50,758 bases of DNA, from positions 1 to 50,758 of the forward strand of contig JAFGIE010000069.1 in the NCBI GenBank assembly GCA_016929775.1, read 5' to 3'. Position 1 is the first letter of the stretch, and every line of letters starts with the position of its first letter. Shown in pieces: positions 21,864 through 50,687 of the stretch. Made by a program: the position numbers and the translations under genes. The notes beneath the pieces were generated by a model. That model did not search any database and was not told the DNA's origin. It saw nothing but the letters and a program-made list of their open reading frames with translations. Source of the stretch: Anaerolineae bacterium. GTDB taxonomy: Bacteria > Chloroflexota > Anaerolineae > JAFGEY01.

Positions 21864-21950
21864 GGAGGGATGGCCGAGTGGACGATGGCGACGGTCTTGA
21901 AAACCGTTGTAGCCGTAAGGTTACCGGGGGTTCGAATCCCTCTCCCTCCG
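21864..21950 (+). tRNA. tRNA-Ser(UGA)
   Basis: 87 nt with acceptor stem GGAGGGA/TCCCTCC, discriminator G, anticodon loop CTTGAAA (TGA at 21898-21900), a long variable arm typical of serine tRNA and T-loop GGTTCGAATCC. CCA is not encoded. Confidence 0.96.
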
Positions 21951-21964
21951 CTGCATACACGCTA

Positions 21965-22054
21965 GGGGAGGTGCCAGAGTGGACGAATGGGGCCGCCTGC
22001 TAAGCGGTTAAGGGGTCAAAAGCTCCTTCCAGGGTTCGAATCCCTGCCTCCCCG
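21965..22054 (+). tRNA. tRNA-Ser(GCU)
   Basis: 90 nt with acceptor GGGGAGG/CCTCCCC, anticodon loop CTGCTAA (GCT at 21999-22001), a long variable arm and T-loop GGTTCGAATCC. It follows tRNA-Ser(UGA) after 14 bp. Confidence 0.96.
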
Positions 22055-22069
22055 CTCATCGGTACGTAC

Positions 22070-22142
22070 GCGCCCGTAGCTCAATGGATAGAGCACCGCT
22101 CTACGAAAGCGAAGGTTGTGGGTTCGAGTCCCGCTGGGCGCG
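22070..22142 (+). tRNA. tRNA-Arg(ACG)
   Basis: 73 nt with acceptor GCGCCCG/TGGGCGC (one G-U), anticodon loop CTACGAA (ACG at 22103-22105; A34 would become inosine) and T-loop GGTTCGAGTCC. The first anticodon-stem pair is a C-A mismatch. CCA is not encoded. Confidence 0.95.
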
Positions 22143-43324: not shown

Positions 43325-43921
43325 TCAGCGCTCGATCGTGCCCGCAGCGGGCACAGGTGGGCTCAGCTGGGCGTGCACGCCATCCTTGGCTTGCTTGAGA
43401 TCCTCGATCAGCGGCTGCAGGTCAATGCTGTCCAGCGAGACCTGCACCGGCACCTTGACCTGTACGGGGACGTCGATCGCCACTTCCTGTGCCACGTCCA
43501 TCTTGACCGTCACCGTGTTGCCCCCCGCGATCTGCATCGTGGCGCTCTCGCCGATCAGCTGCCCCGCGCCGTTGCGCAGGTAGATCGTGATCTGTCCCGT
43601 GTCGAGCTGGTTCGTCCCGACCAGGGCGAGGCTCGTGTCGCTGGGGTTCAGCCGCACGGTAAACGTGACCGGCACAGTGTGGTCGATCTCGACCTCTGTG
43701 ACCAGCTTGGCGTCCTGGATGCGCTGCAGCGACGCGCTGGTCAAGTCAAAGAGCGGGTCGAGATGCTCGGGGCCCACCGTTCGTGGCGCCTCGATCTCGA
43801 GGTCCGTGATCGCATCGTAGATCAGCACCACGCCGACGATCAGCGTCAGCGTTGCCACGAACGAGAACAAGAGCGCGAACTTTTCAAAGGCGGTCCACAG
43901 GAGATCGAGTCTCTTCCACAT
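43325..43921 (-). CDS. Single-pass membrane protein, family not recognised
   Basis: 198 residues from ATG 43921. One membrane helix (about 14-35) comes after a short charged N-terminus, followed by a strand-rich outer domain with VEIDHTVPVTFTVRLNPSD, LVGTNQLDTGQITIYLRNG and a run of alternating Val in VAIDVPVQVKVPVQVSLDS. The regular strands suggest a beta-sandwich outside the membrane. GGAGG 5 nt before ATG 43921 favours this start over 43933 or longer forms. It has its own promoter at 44003-44031. No family recognised. Confidence 0.75.
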   Translation of the reverse strand: MWKRLDLLWTAFEKFALLFSFVATLTLIVGVVLIYDAITDLEIEAPRTVGPEHLDPLFDLTSASLQRIQDAKLVTEVEIDHTVPVTFTVRLNPSDTSLALVGTNQLDTGQITIYLRNGAGQLIGESATMQIAGGNTVTVKMDVAQEVAIDVPVQVKVPVQVSLDSIDLQPLIEDLKQAKDGVHAQLSPPVPAAGTIER

Positions 43922-44002
43922 TTCGCCCTCCATCTGGGGACGTCTGCATCTCGGCGGGCGCCAGGGGCACACGTCTCCCTCGATAACGTGCACGCTGCCA
44001 TC

Positions 44003-44031
44003 ATTATACCTGCCCAGGCGCACACGTGCAA
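44003..44031 (-). promoter_or_regulatory. Promoter of the 198-residue membrane protein gene
   Basis: Minus-strand TTGCAC (44031-44026), 17 bp, TATAAT (44008-44003), about 82 nt before ATG 43921. Confidence 0.75.
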
Positions 44032-44042
44032 GGCCTTCCACG

Positions 44043-44078
44043 CGCGAGATCCCCTGCCGCACGAGCGACAGGGGATCT
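44043..44078 (-). terminator. Hairpin after the RIO kinase gene
   Basis: Perfect 12-bp stem CGAGATCCCCTG/CAGGGGATCTCG with a 12-nt loop (44055-44066), 9 bp after the kinase stop. No U-tract on the minus strand, so it may stop transcription weakly or protect the 3' end. Confidence 0.6.
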
Positions 44079-44087
44079 CGTTACCTG

Positions 44088-45116
44088 CTACAGCGCCTCG
44101 AGGATCGCGCTCTCTTCCGCTGCACGCCACATCGCGGGTGGACCGTACTTGGCCCACAGCTGGTCCGTGAGCGAGATCGGGTCGCAGAGCGCGCCTTGCC
44201 GCTGGAAGTATGCGCACACGCGCGCGATGTCGCGCCCCAGCAGCGCGCGGGCCTCGCCGTTGCCATACACATCTACGACCTGGGGAAAGTCGATCAGGAC
44301 GACCTGCCCCTCCCAGTAGAGGATGTTGTAGGCCGATAGGTCGCCGTGCACCATCTCGTGCTCCAGCATCAGCTCCACGTTGCGCATCACCTCCGCAAAG
44401 AGCGGCGCCGCCTCCTGTGGGTCGAGGCGTACGTCGTTCAGGATCGGCGCGGCGAGCTGGTCAGCCCCGCAGTACCCCATCAGGATCGCGTTCTCGCTGG
44501 ACGCGATCGGGGCGGGGACAGCGCCTCCTGCCCGGTACAGCCGCTGTAGCGCGACGTACTCGTGCATGAGCCACGACGTGTGGCTCACCTGCACGCCAAA
44601 GTCGGTCTTTTTGCCGATCGCGCGCATGATCCGGTGGTCGCTCTTGTTGATGGGACGTCCGTCTCCTCCCAGGATCTGCCGTCCCTGGCGGTACAGCTTG
44701 TCATTGCTCAAGTTGCGGAACCGACGCGGGCGATAGACCTTGGCTGCCAGCAGCGCTACGCCGGTCGACGGATGGGCTTGGCAGAGATAGACGCTTGCCT
44801 CCTTGCCACCCTTGATCTGCGACAGCACGTCCACGATCAGTCCCTCGTTGTAGAAGGCCCGCAGCGAGTCGAGCAGCCATCCCTCTTCGTGGCGCCCTGG
44901 CACGTAGGTCGGCTTGAACCCACCCTCCAGTCCCGCCAGCTCGCCCAGCTCGGCGATCACCTCCTCTTCCGCGACCTTGGGAATGTGCCGTGTCACCGGC
45001 TTGCGCTTCCGGCGCGCGCGGCGATCGTGCTGCAGCGGATCGAACATCCGCTCATAGTACTCGTACTCGTCCTCGTGCCGTTCCTCTTGGCCCCAGCTGA
45101 GTGAATCTCGGTTCAC
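44088..45116 (-). CDS. RIO-family serine/threonine protein kinase
   Basis: 342 residues from GTG 45116. RIO kinases are atypical protein kinases/ATPases best known from ribosome maturation in archaea and eukaryotes; bacterial members exist but are little studied. Motifs are complete: ATP strand IKGGKEASVYLC, Lys126 (AAKVYRPRR), hinge LMHEYVAL, catalytic Asp259 and Asn264 in VHGDLSAYNIL and metal Asp276 in LIDFPQVVD. The N-terminus is acidic then very basic (DRRARRKRKP). In-frame GTGs at 45140 and 45134 are possible starts; AAAGGA about 9 nt before 45116 favours that one. TGA precedes 45140, so nothing longer is open. The gene stands behind a leader of about 440 nt. Confidence 0.9.
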   Translation of the reverse strand: MNRDSLSWGQEERHEDEYEYYERMFDPLQHDRRARRKRKPVTRHIPKVAEEEVIAELGELAGLEGGFKPTYVPGRHEEGWLLDSLRAFYNEGLIVDVLSQIKGGKEASVYLCQAHPSTGVALLAAKVYRPRRFRNLSNDKLYRQGRQILGGDGRPINKSDHRIMRAIGKKTDFGVQVSHTSWLMHEYVALQRLYRAGGAVPAPIASSENAILMGYCGADQLAAPILNDVRLDPQEAAPLFAEVMRNVELMLEHEMVHGDLSAYNILYWEGQVVLIDFPQVVDVYGNGEARALLGRDIARVCAYFQRQGALCDPISLTDQLWAKYGPPAMWRAAEESAILEAL

Positions 45117-45195
45117 CGTTGGCTGTCCTTTCACAGACACTCAAACCGGATACGCTGTTCCTCCGAACGTGGCACCTCACACCCGATTCCTCCAC
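45052..45195 (-). CDS. Possible 47-codon leader ORF overlapping the RIO kinase start
   Basis: GTG 45195 has a full Shine-Dalgarno AAAGGAGGT (45208-45200) 4 nt upstream, stronger than anything before the kinase itself. The frame runs 47 codons and ends at TGA 45054-45052, inside the kinase gene in another frame (the kinase lies +1 relative to it). The peptide is Arg/Ser-rich with two Cys and resembles nothing I know. It may serve translational coupling; it may also be chance. Confidence 0.35.
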   Translation of the reverse strand: MEESGVRCHVRRNSVSGLSVCERTANGEPRFTQLGPRGTARGRVRVL

Positions 45196-45247
45196 AGCGA
45201 CCTCCTTTCCCTCACGGATCCGCAGCCTGCACTGCCCTCAGGCATGC

Positions 45248-45279
45248 AAAACGGCCACGGGCTGCGACCCCGTGGCCGT
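45248..45279 (-). terminator. Leader hairpin 2 of the RIO kinase transcript, terminator-like
   Basis: Minus-strand stem ACGGCCACGGG/CCCGTGGCCGT (11 bp, 7-nt loop), followed by TTTTGC. It lies between the hairpin at 45326-45361 and the kinase start. Confidence 0.75.
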
Positions 45280-45325
45280 ACTTCCGTCGTGCCATCGCCC
45301 ATCGACCGGGAGGGACGGCACAACG

Positions 45326-45361
45326 AAAAACGGCCGCGGAGCTGAACGCACCCGCGGCCGT
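45326..45361 (-). terminator. Leader hairpin 1 of the RIO kinase transcript, terminator-like
   Basis: Minus-strand stem ACGGCCGCGG/CCGCGGCCGT (10 bp, 12-nt loop), followed by TTTTTCG. It comes about 27 nt after the stop of the 24-codon ORF. Its arms nearly equal those of hairpin 2, so the two can cross-pair. Confidence 0.8.
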
Positions 45362-45387
45362 GTCTATGCAGACCTGATCTACTGGAT

Positions 45388-45462
45388 CTAGCTACACACG
45401 CAACTCGGTAGGGCGCGTTCTATGCGGTTGATCACATGGATTGAGCAGGTGACCTGCGCCAT
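45388..45462 (-). CDS. 24-residue leader peptide or microprotein upstream of the RIO kinase
   Basis: ATG 45462 has AAAGGAGG 8 nt upstream, among the best ribosome sites in the window. The peptide begins MAQVTCSIHV and ends LPSCVCS, with three Cys, the last two one residue apart just before the stop. It lies about 90 nt after the mapped promoter and is followed within 30 nt by the first terminator-like hairpin, the classic place of an attenuator leader peptide. No family is recognised. The alternative is a secreted or metal-binding microprotein gene with its own terminator. Confidence 0.55.
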   Translation of the reverse strand: MAQVTCSIHVINRIERALPSCVCS

Positions 45463-45559
45463 ATCGCACCCTCCTTTGGCCTACGCGTGCCCGGGTGGGT
45501 GGGGTCCTGCGCCCTCGCGCTTCCCCCGTCCTGCCTGGGTCGTCTGATCCGATAACCAG

Positions 45560-45588
45560 AGTGTATCACATCTTTGGCGAGGCGTCAA
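45560..45588 (-). promoter_or_regulatory. Near-consensus promoter of the RIO kinase leader
   Basis: Minus-strand TTGACG (45588-45583), 17 bp, TACACT (45565-45560). The -35 box overlaps the stop codon of the upstream PfkB gene. Predicted start near 45553 gives a leader of about 440 nt to GTG 45116. Confidence 0.85.
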
Positions 45589-46598
45589 ATGCCGCGTTCA
45601 GGATACGAGCCGCTCGCCGCCAGGAATGCCGCGACCTGCGCCGCACTGGGCAGCGCCGGGATCCCGCCCCGCGTCATCGACGTCAGTGCCCCGACCGCAT
45701 TCGCATAGCGCAGCGCGTCGCGCAAGACAGGCGGCGAGGGCCTGGCGCCCGCTCCGCCCGCCACCAGCCGGCACAGCAGGCCCGCCACGAACGCATCCCC
45801 GCACCCGGTCGCGTCCACTGTCTCGACCTGGAACCCCGGCACGCATCCTCCCCCTGCAGCCGTCCGGAACGCGCACCCCGCCCGTCCCAGGGTAACCACG
45901 CACAGCCCCGGTCCCAGCTCCAGGATGTGCTCCGCCGCTGCCAGGATCGCGTCACTCCCCGCCCACGGATCGGCCAACCCTGTCGCGCCGCGCGTGAGCA
46001 GTGCGAGCTCGGTCTCATTCACCTTGACCACGTCGGCGAACGCGATCGCCTCGCGGATCCGATCGTATGCTGTCCGCGCGCTGGGCCACAGCGTGGGCCG
46101 ATAGTTGACGTCGAGGGACACCATCGCCCCGCCCGCGTGCGCGGTTCGCACAGCCTCGACGGTCGCGCTGCGGACCGGCTCGTCGATCATGCTGATCGAG
46201 CCGAAATGAAACACCTTGGCCTCCGCGATCAACGCCTGGTCCAGCTCGTCTGCGCGCAGCATCATGTCTGCGCCCGGATTGCGGTAGAAGGCAAACTCGG
46301 AGGTGTTCTCGTCGGGCTGCGCGATGAAAGCCAGCGTCGTCCGGGCCTCGTGGTCCAGCCGCATGCCGCGCACGTCCACCCCCTCCCGCCGCAGGACCTC
46401 GATCAAGCGATGCCCGAACGCCTCGTCTCCCACCTTGCCGATGAACGCGCTCCTGGCGCCTAGGCGCGCCGCCGCCACCGCGACGTTTGCCGGCGCGCCA
46501 CCCGGCTTTGGGTAAAAGGCCGAGACGTCTGCGAGCCGCCGGCCAAGCTCTGCCGGAAAGAGGTCGATCAGCACCTCGCCCATGCACACGATATCCAT
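45585..46598 (-). CDS. PfkB-family carbohydrate kinase (fructokinase-like)
   Basis: 337 residues. Ribokinase/PfkB kinases phosphorylate sugars with ATP. The first signature is GGAPANVAVAAARLG (33-47), with SAFIGKVGDEAFGH close behind. The second is DATGCGDAFVAGLL, with catalytic base Asp268. MGEVLIDLFP at the start and VSLDVNYRPTLW are typical of fructokinases and relatives. It has its own promoter at 46679-46707 and is divergent from the alcohol dehydrogenase operon. Exact sugar unknown. Confidence 0.92.
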   Translation of the reverse strand: MDIVCMGEVLIDLFPAELGRRLADVSAFYPKPGGAPANVAVAAARLGARSAFIGKVGDEAFGHRLIEVLRREGVDVRGMRLDHEARTTLAFIAQPDENTSEFAFYRNPGADMMLRADELDQALIAEAKVFHFGSISMIDEPVRSATVEAVRTAHAGGAMVSLDVNYRPTLWPSARTAYDRIREAIAFADVVKVNETELALLTRGATGLADPWAGSDAILAAAEHILELGPGLCVVTLGRAGCAFRTAAGGGCVPGFQVETVDATGCGDAFVAGLLCRLVAGGAGARPSPPVLRDALRYANAVGALTSMTRGGIPALPSAAQVAAFLAASGSYPERGI

Positions 46599-49201: not shown

Positions 49202-49905
49202 GCGAGCTGCCGCCCTGCGCCATCTTGTCGTGGGACGAGGCAATCGTCGTGGTGGACAAGCCGGCGGGCCTGTTGGTGATCCGCGGCGGCTACGTCCAAG
49301 ATCCCTACCTGACACAGCTCTTGGAACCGACCTTCGGCCGCCTATGGGTCGTCCACCGGCTGGACCGCGATACGAGCGGCGTGCTTGTCCTGGCGCGCAG
49401 CGCTGCGGCGCACCGCGCGCTGAACGCCCAGTTCGAGCAGCGTCGCGTGCACAAGGTTTACCACGCACTCGTGGTCGGTGCACCGACCTGGACCGAGCAG
49501 ACGGTCGACCTGCCGCTGCGGCGCGATGGCGACCGGCGCCACCGCACCGTCGTGGACCTGCTGCGAGGCAAACACGCCGTGACGCGGTTCAGGGTCCTCG
49601 AGCGCTTTGGCTGCTGCGCGTTGGTCGAGGCCCTGCCCATGACCGGGCGCACCCACCAGATCCGGGCCCACCTTGCCGCCCTCGGGCTGCCCTTGGCAGG
49701 GGATCCGCTGTACCACGTGCCACGCGATCACCCAGCGGCGAGCGCCGCCGGAGGCGGTGCACAACCCCCCCTGATCGCACGTACAGCCCTGCACGCGCTG
49801 GCGCTCACCTTCTACCATCCCAGCAGCGGCGAGGAGACGACCTGCCGTGCTCCCTATCCCGCGGACCTGAGCGCCGCGATCGACCGGCTTTGCCAGTCTG
49901 GCTAG
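49198..49905 (+). CDS. RluA-family pseudouridine synthase
   Basis: 235 residues, GTG start in a four-base overlap with the MFS stop. RluA-type enzymes turn specific uridines in rRNA or tRNA into pseudouridine. The catalytic motif is VVHRLDRDTSGVLV (Asp56), preceded by VVVDKPAGLLV and followed by KVYHALV and MTGRTHQIRAHLAALGLPLAGDPLY, the full family set. There is no N-terminal S4 domain, as in RluA itself. It is convergent with the next gene; the stop codons overlap. Confidence 0.92.
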   Translation: MSELPPCAILSWDEAIVVVDKPAGLLVIRGGYVQDPYLTQLLEPTFGRLWVVHRLDRDTSGVLVLARSAAAHRALNAQFEQRRVHKVYHALVVGAPTWTEQTVDLPLRRDGDRRHRTVVDLLRGKHAVTRFRVLERFGCCALVEALPMTGRTHQIRAHLAALGLPLAGDPLYHVPRDHPAASAAGGGAQPPLIARTALHALALTFYHPSSGEETTCRAPYPADLSAAIDRLCQSG

Positions 49906-50588
49906 GGGTGAGCGTACTTGAGCGCGTACAGCTCGCTGTCGTACGGCGCCCGGCGCCCAGGGCAGTGCACGCGCGCACACAGCTGGCAGCTCTCAAAGCT
50001 CTCCACCGTCGGGAAACGGATCCCAGAGATCGATTTGGCGGGCGTCATCAGCATGCTGTCCGTGAGCGTCACGCCGATCGCCTCGCGCACGTTGCCCAAG
50101 CTCGCAAATAGGGCCCGCTGCTCGCTCAAAGGCCACTCACTCAACGACCCTGGCGCCATCGTCGCCGTCTTGCCAGGTTGGTGGCGCTCGACGAGCGCGC
50201 GGTGGAGCGCCCGAGACGCGGAGCGGAGCGCGCTCTCCTGGATTGCGTCCGCCCAGTACCGGTGCAGCAGGTCGTCGAGCCCCTGCGCCCAGCGCTCGAT
50301 CTCGGCGCCACACGTCGCAACATAGAGAAAGACCCGATGCACTTCTGCCAGGTTCACGGTCAGGATACGGCTCCGGAAGGTCGTGCCATCGACCACGACA
50401 TAGTCGTCTCCGCGCTCGTCGATGAACCCGAGCCTGTACAGCGCCTTGGGGCGCGCCACTGCCTCGGCGCCCGCGACCAGGCGATCGAACTCGTGCGCAT
50501 GTTCGCTGTCTGCGGCGATGCGCAACCGCTGCGCAAGCGCCGCACGGTCCGCCCGGAATGGGATGTCGTCAATGATCACACTGTCCAT
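49902..50588 (-). CDS. B12-dependent methionine synthase activation-domain protein
   Basis: 228 residues from ATG 50588 (AAGGA 6 nt upstream). In MetH the C-terminal activation domain binds S-adenosylmethionine and helps re-methylate oxidised cobalamin; here it is a separate protein. Supporting blocks: FLYVATCGAEIERW, YWADAIQESALRSASRALH, and the SAM-site region SMLMTPAKSISGIRFPT, followed by FESCQLCARVHCPGRRAPYD. That closing block holds a Cys cluster (CxxC, then C) not typical of MetH and common in the stand-alone relatives of anaerobes. The last gene of the window runs towards it on the same strand, 100 bp upstream. Confidence 0.85.
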   Translation of the reverse strand: MDSVIIDDIPFRADRAALAQRLRIAADSEHAHEFDRLVAGAEAVARPKALYRLGFIDERGDDYVVVDGTTFRSRILTVNLAEVHRVFLYVATCGAEIERWAQGLDDLLHRYWADAIQESALRSASRALHRALVERHQPGKTATMAPGSLSEWPLSEQRALFASLGNVREAIGVTLTDSMLMTPAKSISGIRFPTVESFESCQLCARVHCPGRRAPYDSELYALKYAHP

Positions 50589-50628
50589 GGTGCGTCCTTG
50601 GCCTACGTTTCGTGGGTATAGGGCGAGC

Positions 50629-50657
50629 AGTATAGCATATGTCACCGGGGCGCACAA
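50629..50657 (-). promoter_or_regulatory. Promoter of the methionine synthase activation-domain gene
   Basis: Minus-strand TTGTGC (50657-50652), 17 bp, TATACT (50634-50629), about 35 nt before ATG 50588. Confidence 0.75.
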
Positions 50658-50687
50658 GCTACGGATGCGCAGAGAGGGCAATCGCAT

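Follow-up and report, generated by a model that had tools for sequence, protein, structure and literature searches.

How is transcription into a RIO kinase gene controlled in a bacterium of the class Anaerolineae? Archaeal and eukaryotic RIO kinases act in small-subunit maturation, and to our knowledge it is unsettled what RIO kinases do in bacteria. The gene studied here lies on the minus strand of contig JAFGIE010000069.1, of which positions 1 to 50,758 (the window) were analysed. A sequence-only reading had described the leader of this gene as attenuator-like, with mutually exclusive pairings, and its parts are all present. The promoter TTGACG-17-TACACT is at 45588-45560, an ATG open reading frame (ORF) of 24 codons plus stop (MAQVTCSIHVINRIERALPSCVCS, 45462-45388) follows a strong Shine-Dalgarno (SD) sequence (AAAGGAGG), two GC hairpins with U-runs are at 45361-45330 and 45279-45251, and their arms can cross-pair over 11 bp with one G-U. 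Our analysis indicates that the leader is probably a cis-acting transcription attenuator of the vmlR type, based on an upstream ORF (uORF) and composed of anti-antiterminator, antiterminator, and terminator, which would free kinase transcription when a ribosome is held at the start codon of the uORF.

The strands were named R1 (the SD sequence), R2 (the 3' end of the ORF), R3 and R4 (the arms of terminator 1), and R5 and R6 (the arms of terminator 2). The core element spans 45328-45477 from the SD sequence to the U-run of terminator 1, as delimited by a covariance model built without the window. R1 (AGGGTGCG, 45465-45472), a part of the SD region defined by pairing energy, swap test, and covariation, can pair with R2 (GAACGCGCCCT, 45410-45420, near the 3' end of the ORF) over 8 bp at -18.7 kcal/mol, and this helix would be the anti-antiterminator. 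The other partner of R2 (GAACGCGCCC at 45420-45411) is R3 (GGGTGCGTTC, 45344-45353), which comprises the upper 5' arm and the loop of terminator 1. Their 10 bp, including one G-U, would form the antiterminator with an energy of -22.4 kcal/mol, versus a mean of -11.7 kcal/mol with the arms of other leaders. Terminator 1 itself is the R3/R4 hairpin (-25.4 kcal/mol) followed by the U-run TTTTC, with R4 (CCGCGGCCGT, 45330-45339) as its 3' arm.

Are these features more than chance? The protein search scored 7998 candidates and gave 5051 relatives at E ≤ 1e-20. A species-genome scan contributed the best 80 of 283 stretches encoding kinase relatives, and most record titles among these 80 name Anaerolineae or other Chloroflexota. 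In a class sample of 298 genomes (the class of L001, an Anaerolineae record), 95 had a kinase match at E ≤ 1e-30, from which 30 loci and 40 further upstream regions were taken and the 25 weakest left out. L098 was excluded as the same place as L034. The resulting 150 upstream pieces, window included, were reduced to 132 after removal of four that were too short and 14 duplicates; the sequences are mostly derived from metagenome-assembled genomes. Of the 132 distinct regions upstream of RIO kinase genes, 86 carry one or more terminator-like hairpins within 600 nt and 41 carry two or more, and 56 contain, in order, a short ATG ORF with an SD sequence able to pair with the ORF's own end and then a hairpin. 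Hence, conservation across these regions argues that the leader features are more than chance, and the absence of a conserved hairpin or short ORF in relatives, by which the sequence-only reading was to stand or fall, was not what we found. In addition, none of 100 shuffles folds as well as the whole leader (z -3.9). No Rfam family, be it a riboswitch, a T-box, or a ribosomal-protein leader, matched the window leader at its gathering score. Weak matches to scr5239 (E 0.085) and, on the other strand, to two microRNA families (E 0.58 and 0.9) are far below the gathering scores and were taken as chance. In the loci of 15 relatives, Rfam gave a single match away from the element, a T-box leader (RF00230, E 8e-25) at L001:3198-3440, minus strand, some 0.6 kb away from the RIO kinase match.

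The competition for R2 was examined by a swap test, in which the pairing within a leader is compared with that of segments exchanged between leaders, other segment pairs of like composition being the controls. The test includes no phylogeny model; the RIO-leader tests were thinned so that a single leader represents each kinase cluster (40 clusters from the 56 leaders, identity below 60%), and this thinning does not extend to the 26-element and R4:R5 tests below. R2:R3, which played no part in leader selection, is stronger within leaders than when swapped (z -10.2, 40 clusters), with the four control pairs at z -1.1, 0.9, -0.9, and 0.6. With 28 clusters at 50% identity, its z is -5.5. R1:R2 gave z -8.1 (40 clusters) and R3:R4 gave z -14, the further controls being 1.1, -0.5, and -0.5. 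Thinning by DNA identity to eight clusters left R2:R3 at z -3.8; since this merged unrelated leaders, kinase-protein clusters were used instead. The flanks of the R2:R3 core are weak (21 DNA-identity clusters, 20 usable): 222, 135, 241, 385, 1110, and 1435 of 2000 swaps reach the observed pairing on the 5' side, and 372 to 1727 of 2000 do so on the 3' side.

Covariation was assessed in an alignment of 14 leaders that excludes the window. R2:R3 cells are paired in 86.4% versus a shuffle mean of 79.5%, and 17 cells are changed on both sides versus a shuffle mean of 6.6; none of 500 shuffles reaches either value. Sliding R2:R3 out of register lowers the paired cells to 27-61%. R1:R2 and R3:R4 together are 94.7% paired, with 27 both-side cells versus 10.5 in shuffles (0 of 500 reach). 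Variation is freest on the loop side of R2:R3, where columns 83/156, which are outside those pairing with the SD sequence, hold AU 4, GC 3, UA 2, CG 1, and other 4. Comparative sequence analysis shows R1 and R3 as putative competitors for R2, and R3:R4 as the predicted terminator. The uORF is enclosed by the anti-antiterminator hairpin (partly selected for in the RIO set), and the antiterminator overlaps both the anti-antiterminator and the intrinsic terminator. Specifically, R2:R3 overlaps a median of 9 of 12 terminator-1 pairs in the RIO leaders as well as in the non-RIO elements described below. This overlap bears on a different possibility, namely that R2 forms a pseudoknot with the loop of terminator 1 and tunes termination rather than preventing it. 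R3 is indeed centred on the loop and the upper arm, but the best duplexes, internal loops included, consume those stem pairs and leave a median of one lower pair (RIO) or none (non-RIO), and we regard the pseudoknot as improbable. In a subgroup of leaders (L108, L109, L110, L111, L112, L114, and L116), a strand behind the SD sequence (GCTCCATA) pairs with the ORF-end strand TATGGAGC or a near copy. The five members tested show weak R2:R3 pairing, so this clade may use another antiterminator.

We then inspected what the short ORF contributes. The ORFs of the 56 leaders have a median length of 21 aa, and their peptides share no residue beyond the frequent ones; 27 of the 56 contain Cys, 21 His, and 4 Trp. 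The distance from the end of R2 to the end of the stop codon has a median of 16 nt, and the GCC core of R2 occurs in all three frames (18, 14, and 4 of 36 placed). Sixty of the 62 non-RIO elements have an SD sequence and a start codon; in 52 of these 60, the ORF covers R2 and ends ahead of terminator 1, and the other two frames do so in 11 and 27. The reading frame is kept and its content is not, so ribosome position seems to be what counts. The sequence-only reading had recognised the logic of amino-acid attenuators of the trp/his type, in which the ribosome stalls at hungry codons of the leader peptide. A leader peptide and terminators are present, and the window peptide contains three Cys codons. 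However, no residue recurs across the 56 peptides, the frame of R2 varies, codon runs for a regulated amino acid were not found, and the downstream genes are not for amino-acid biosynthesis or transport. We therefore give an amino-acid attenuator almost no credence. The broader suggestion that translation status might control the kinase holds up as a plausible reading of the leader. A self-controlled functional micropeptide, followed by ordinary tandem terminators and with the kinase transcribed from another promoter, would agree with an ORF whose 3' end can sequester its own SD sequence, but the peptide is not conserved while R2:R3 is, and the same module stands in front of unrelated genes. 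It is very unlikely.

The vmlR-type attenuator would operate as follows. Without ribosomes, R1:R2 would form and the terminators would stop RNA polymerase. A ribosome translating to the stop codon would cover R2, again leading to termination. If a ribosome is held up on the start codon or close to it, it would hide R1, and R2 could invade R3 before R4 is made; once R2:R3 has formed, terminator 1 should fail. The freed R4 could take R5 and disarm terminator 2, this relay being the least certain step, and after both terminators are passed transcription would reach the RIO kinase gene. With a start-held ribosome as the trigger, the signal would be that initiation and early elongation are slow or blocked, irrespective of the peptide. 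Ensembles were folded from the predicted transcription start, and the ribosome was mimicked by masking the SD/start or the stop region. When the arm of terminator 1 lacks its last 3 nt, the probability of terminator 1 in the window is 0.98 free, 0.05 with the start masked, and 0.96 with the stop masked. Among the 56 leaders with 3 nt missing, it drops below 0.5 in 8 free, 27 start masked, and 9 stop masked. With the arm incomplete in this way, the folding model would agree with read-through caused by a start-stalled ribosome.

Several results weigh against this account. A simple terminator scan is at chance level (1 site versus a shuffle mean of 1.0), and the case therefore rests on conservation; yet 46 of the 132 RIO upstream regions are without a terminator-like hairpin, and the ordered set is present in just 56 under the filters used. 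The R1:R2 statistic is partly circular as the 56 leaders were filtered for R1:R2 pairing. In 14 of the 56, the own R2:R3 pairing is no better than the mean with others' arms, and one further leader ties. Counted as pairs rather than cells, covariation is not above shuffles: R2:R3 pairs with both-side change number 5 versus 3.8 (153 of 500 reach) and R2:R3 pair types 17 versus 15.2 (103 of 500), while R1:R2 and R3:R4 have 7 such pairs versus 4.9 (57 of 500) and pair types that all 500 shuffles reach. Terminator 1 is stabler than R2:R3 in 35 of 56 RIO and 38 of 62 non-RIO leaders. In the window, the complete arm gives a probability of 0.97 for terminator 1 whether free, R1 masked, or stop masked, and an arm missing 5 nt gives 0.56 free, 0.00 start masked, and 0.02 stop masked; at this latter point, the predicted switching is seen in 15 of the 56 leaders and the opposite in 3. 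Folding the window leader to the end of terminator 2 yields the same minimum-energy form under any mask, a long form with R3:R6 and R4:R5. No switch is visible when complete hairpins are folded from the transcription start. As masking of R1 does not move the complete terminator 1, the switch would have to be kinetic, and folding shows only part of it.

What, then, is the second hairpin for? Terminator 2 is the R5/R6 hairpin (-23.6 kcal/mol) followed by the U-run TTTG, with R5 (ACGGCCACGG, 45270-45279) as its 5' arm. In 19 of 56 RIO and 34 of 62 non-RIO leaders, the first terminator is followed by another at a distance of up to 140 nt. In this part of the leaders, comparative sequence analysis shows the predicted R5 strand to be complementary to R4. 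Near-copy hairpins are inherently cross-complementary, so R4:R5 was compared with R3:R6 in 55 leaders not thinned for relatedness. R4:R5 has z -10.9 and a mean of -19.5 kcal/mol, R3:R6 has z -6.2 and a mean of -17.7 kcal/mol, and the same-sense controls are null or reversed. Across different leaders of one genome, R4:R5 averages -16.6 versus -20.4 within leaders (10 ordered pairs). The sequence-only reading had proposed that the RNA folds either as two terminators or as one long-range form, in which the outer arms R3 and R6 pair and break both. The long-range form is real insofar as it is the free minimum-energy fold of the window leader, where it contains R4:R5 as well; R3:R6 also exceeds swaps and, at -30.5 versus -22.9 kcal/mol, is the stabler pairing in the window. 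Nevertheless, R4:R5 is the stronger one family-wide, and R3:R6 would require terminator 1 to be already passed, would leave R2 without a role although R2:R3 is conserved, and would have no second terminator to act on in the 37 of 56 RIO and 28 of 62 non-RIO leaders where none was found within 140 nt. The main switch is probably not R3:R6, and we consider a switch of that kind unlikely. The family data on R4:R5 favour a relay over duplication or the long-range form, tempered by the window values and by R4:R5 being stabler in just 32 of 55 leaders (9 of 20 RIO, 23 of 35 non-RIO).

Is the element peculiar to RIO kinase genes? A covariance model was trained on the 14 RIO leaders, window excluded, and R2:R3 is absent from its structure; its E-values are rough. 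The window element was found with E 1.1e-8 as the only match at E ≤ 1 in the 50,758 bases. The class sample gave 93 matches at E ≤ 1e-4 in 69 of 298 genomes. Only 31 of these precede RIO kinase genes, as judged by comparing places with the kinase matches, and our first idea of a RIO-only element was overturned by the matches before other genes. The next genes of the other 62 encode 29 ABC proteins, 16 GNAT-type acetyltransferases, 9 RsgA, 2 MFS proteins, 1 HAD hydrolase, and 1 RIO-like protein that was assigned by eye and whose Pfam scan does not list PF01163, and 4 cases are unclear; no next gene was found for one match. Pfam on the 61 proteins gave ABC_tran 29, RsgA_GTPase 9, Acetyltransf_1 11 plus other GNAT models, MFS_1 2, and ABC_tran_Xtn 2, the last of which we take to be typical of ABC-F. 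NCBIfam placed RsgA above the cut-off in 3 of 3 tested, and its best models for three ABC proteins, DrrA (2) and MsbA (1), were below the cut-off. Of the GNAT-type proteins, 10 of 16 were examined one by one, with GNAT matches for 9; the GNAT assignment of L173, which has no NCBIfam match, rests on its cluster with L213. In 26 non-RIO elements (16 loci and 10 further fetched places, L175 left out), R2:R3 again exceeds swaps (z -5.7, 0 of 5000; controls -0.6, -0.3, -1.1).

The reach of the model has its limits. Phylum-wide, 18 of 301 genomes match, 15 of which are already in the class sample; in the remaining three genomes, the matches stand before genes for two ABC exporters and one RIO kinase, as read by eye. 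None of 151 genomes matches in the phylum of an Armatimonadota-labelled genome, and there is no match in six single genomes, one of which is the source of L057, a locus with a similar-looking RIO leader as judged by eye. The model thus misses some members, and such empty answers are weak. A strict DNA pattern search had matches in 5 of 13 genomes; three are RIO leaders and the remaining two, L081 and L082, were not recognised as such. Six pattern matches on viral contigs included no relative. L183 (E 0.00125) is located immediately after an rplA-like gene (by eye), the expected position of an L10 leader, and was excluded as a likely false match; two of 69 matches, the second-strand ones in L132 and L152, probably represent noise. 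The matches in L173, L188, and L195 are only 87-89 nt long; their SD/ORF part seems shortened, and the terminator and some R2:R3 remain.

Because the same module precedes genes for RsgA, ABC exporters, ABC-F, GNAT, and MFS proteins, the set is best understood as a regulon for translation stress in Anaerolineae-type Chloroflexota, with small-subunit maturation factors among its members, a candidate regulon linking the bacterial RIO kinase with 30S maturation. A wider proposal, on which we would not bet at even odds, is that one RNA module before at least five gene families constitutes this regulon without a trans regulator, that tandem terminators are disarmed by the relay R2:R3 then R4:R5, that stress induces the bacterial RIO kinase, which would act on the small subunit alongside RsgA, and that low kinase may trigger the switch via ribosomes stuck at initiation.

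The surroundings of the element in the window are as follows. The sigma-70-like promoter has a TG before its -10 and is the sole promoter-like site in the 3 kb of 43500-46500 (shuffle mean 0.3); it adjoins the stop codon of the upstream pfkB-type sugar kinase gene (45585-46598, minus strand), directly behind it. Several relatives' leaders have similar -35/-10 words upstream (by eye). The RIO1-family kinase (44088-45116, minus strand, 342 aa from GTG at 45116; PF01163, E 3e-35) carries the motifs HGDLSAYN and IDFPQ in an alignment of 33 sequences. Downstream of terminator 2 (45208-45055, minus strand, by eye), a second strong SD sequence (AAAGGAGG) precedes an ORF of about 43 codons, which begins with GTG and overlaps with the start of the kinase gene in a different frame. 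An SD-led ATG is at the equivalent place in L019, L064, L065, and L079, and translational coupling to the kinase is possible. The predicted protein directly after the kinase (43325-44062, minus strand) has no Pfam or NCBIfam match at E 0.001. Elsewhere, three adjacent tRNA genes are at 21864-22142 on the plus strand, and a 261-aa protein (49902-50687, minus strand) partially matches Met_synt_B12, the B12-dependent methionine synthase activation domain (E 2e-6).

How does the module compare with known attenuators? Those of the trp type alternate the pairings 1:2, 2:3, and 3:4. The Chloroflexota module has the same scheme, but it lacks regulatory codons and its strand 1 is the SD sequence. The vmlR leader of Bacillus subtilis combines a terminator and an overlapping antiterminator with an anti-antiterminator that encloses a uORF, and it responds to drugs that should arrest ribosomes during initiation (PMC9226507). 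Both leaders would accordingly place the uORF in the anti-antiterminator hairpin, overlap the antiterminator with an intrinsic terminator, and take an initiation-stalled ribosome as the proposed signal; an ABC-F resistance factor is downstream of the one, and ABC-F proteins and exporters are among the targets of the other. They differ in that the Chloroflexota uORF has a median of 21 codons versus three in vmlR, that the SD sequence itself is strand 1, that terminators are often in tandem with a possible R4:R5 relay, and that the module is reused before RIO kinase and RsgA. The kinship is an analogy of mechanism only. In E. coli, the single uORF toiL before topAI senses many kinds of stalled ribosomes, start-codon stalling included, and in the same text the actinobacterial uORF attenuator of whiB7 senses several ribosome drugs (PMC12121999). 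Sensing of ribosomes stalled at the start codon by a single uORF would be common to toiL and the Chloroflexota module, but toiL controls translation and Rho-dependent termination whereas the latter uses putative intrinsic terminators; like that of whiB7, its uORF would feed a translation-stress response. whiB7 encodes one trans-acting regulator, whereas in Chloroflexota each gene has its own copy of the RNA module in front. In the literature searched (titles and abstract starts, few subscription journals), no uORF attenuator of RIO kinase or rsgA genes or of Chloroflexota was named among the matches listed, and a strand relay disarming tandem terminators was not met.

If correct, these results would extend uORF attenuation to Chloroflexota, would give a marker for ribosome-stress genes in uncultured bacteria, and would offer a reason for near-copy tandem terminators. 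RsgA assists late 30S assembly (PMC4436671), and RIO kinases are factors of pre-40S assembly and ribosome biogenesis (PMC6501643, PMC5374425). The switch shared with RsgA, a 30S maturation GTPase, would suggest that the bacterial RIO kinase acts in small-subunit maturation too. This is an argument by company rather than a proof, and it would provide an independent, testable hint on the role of the kinase in bacteria.

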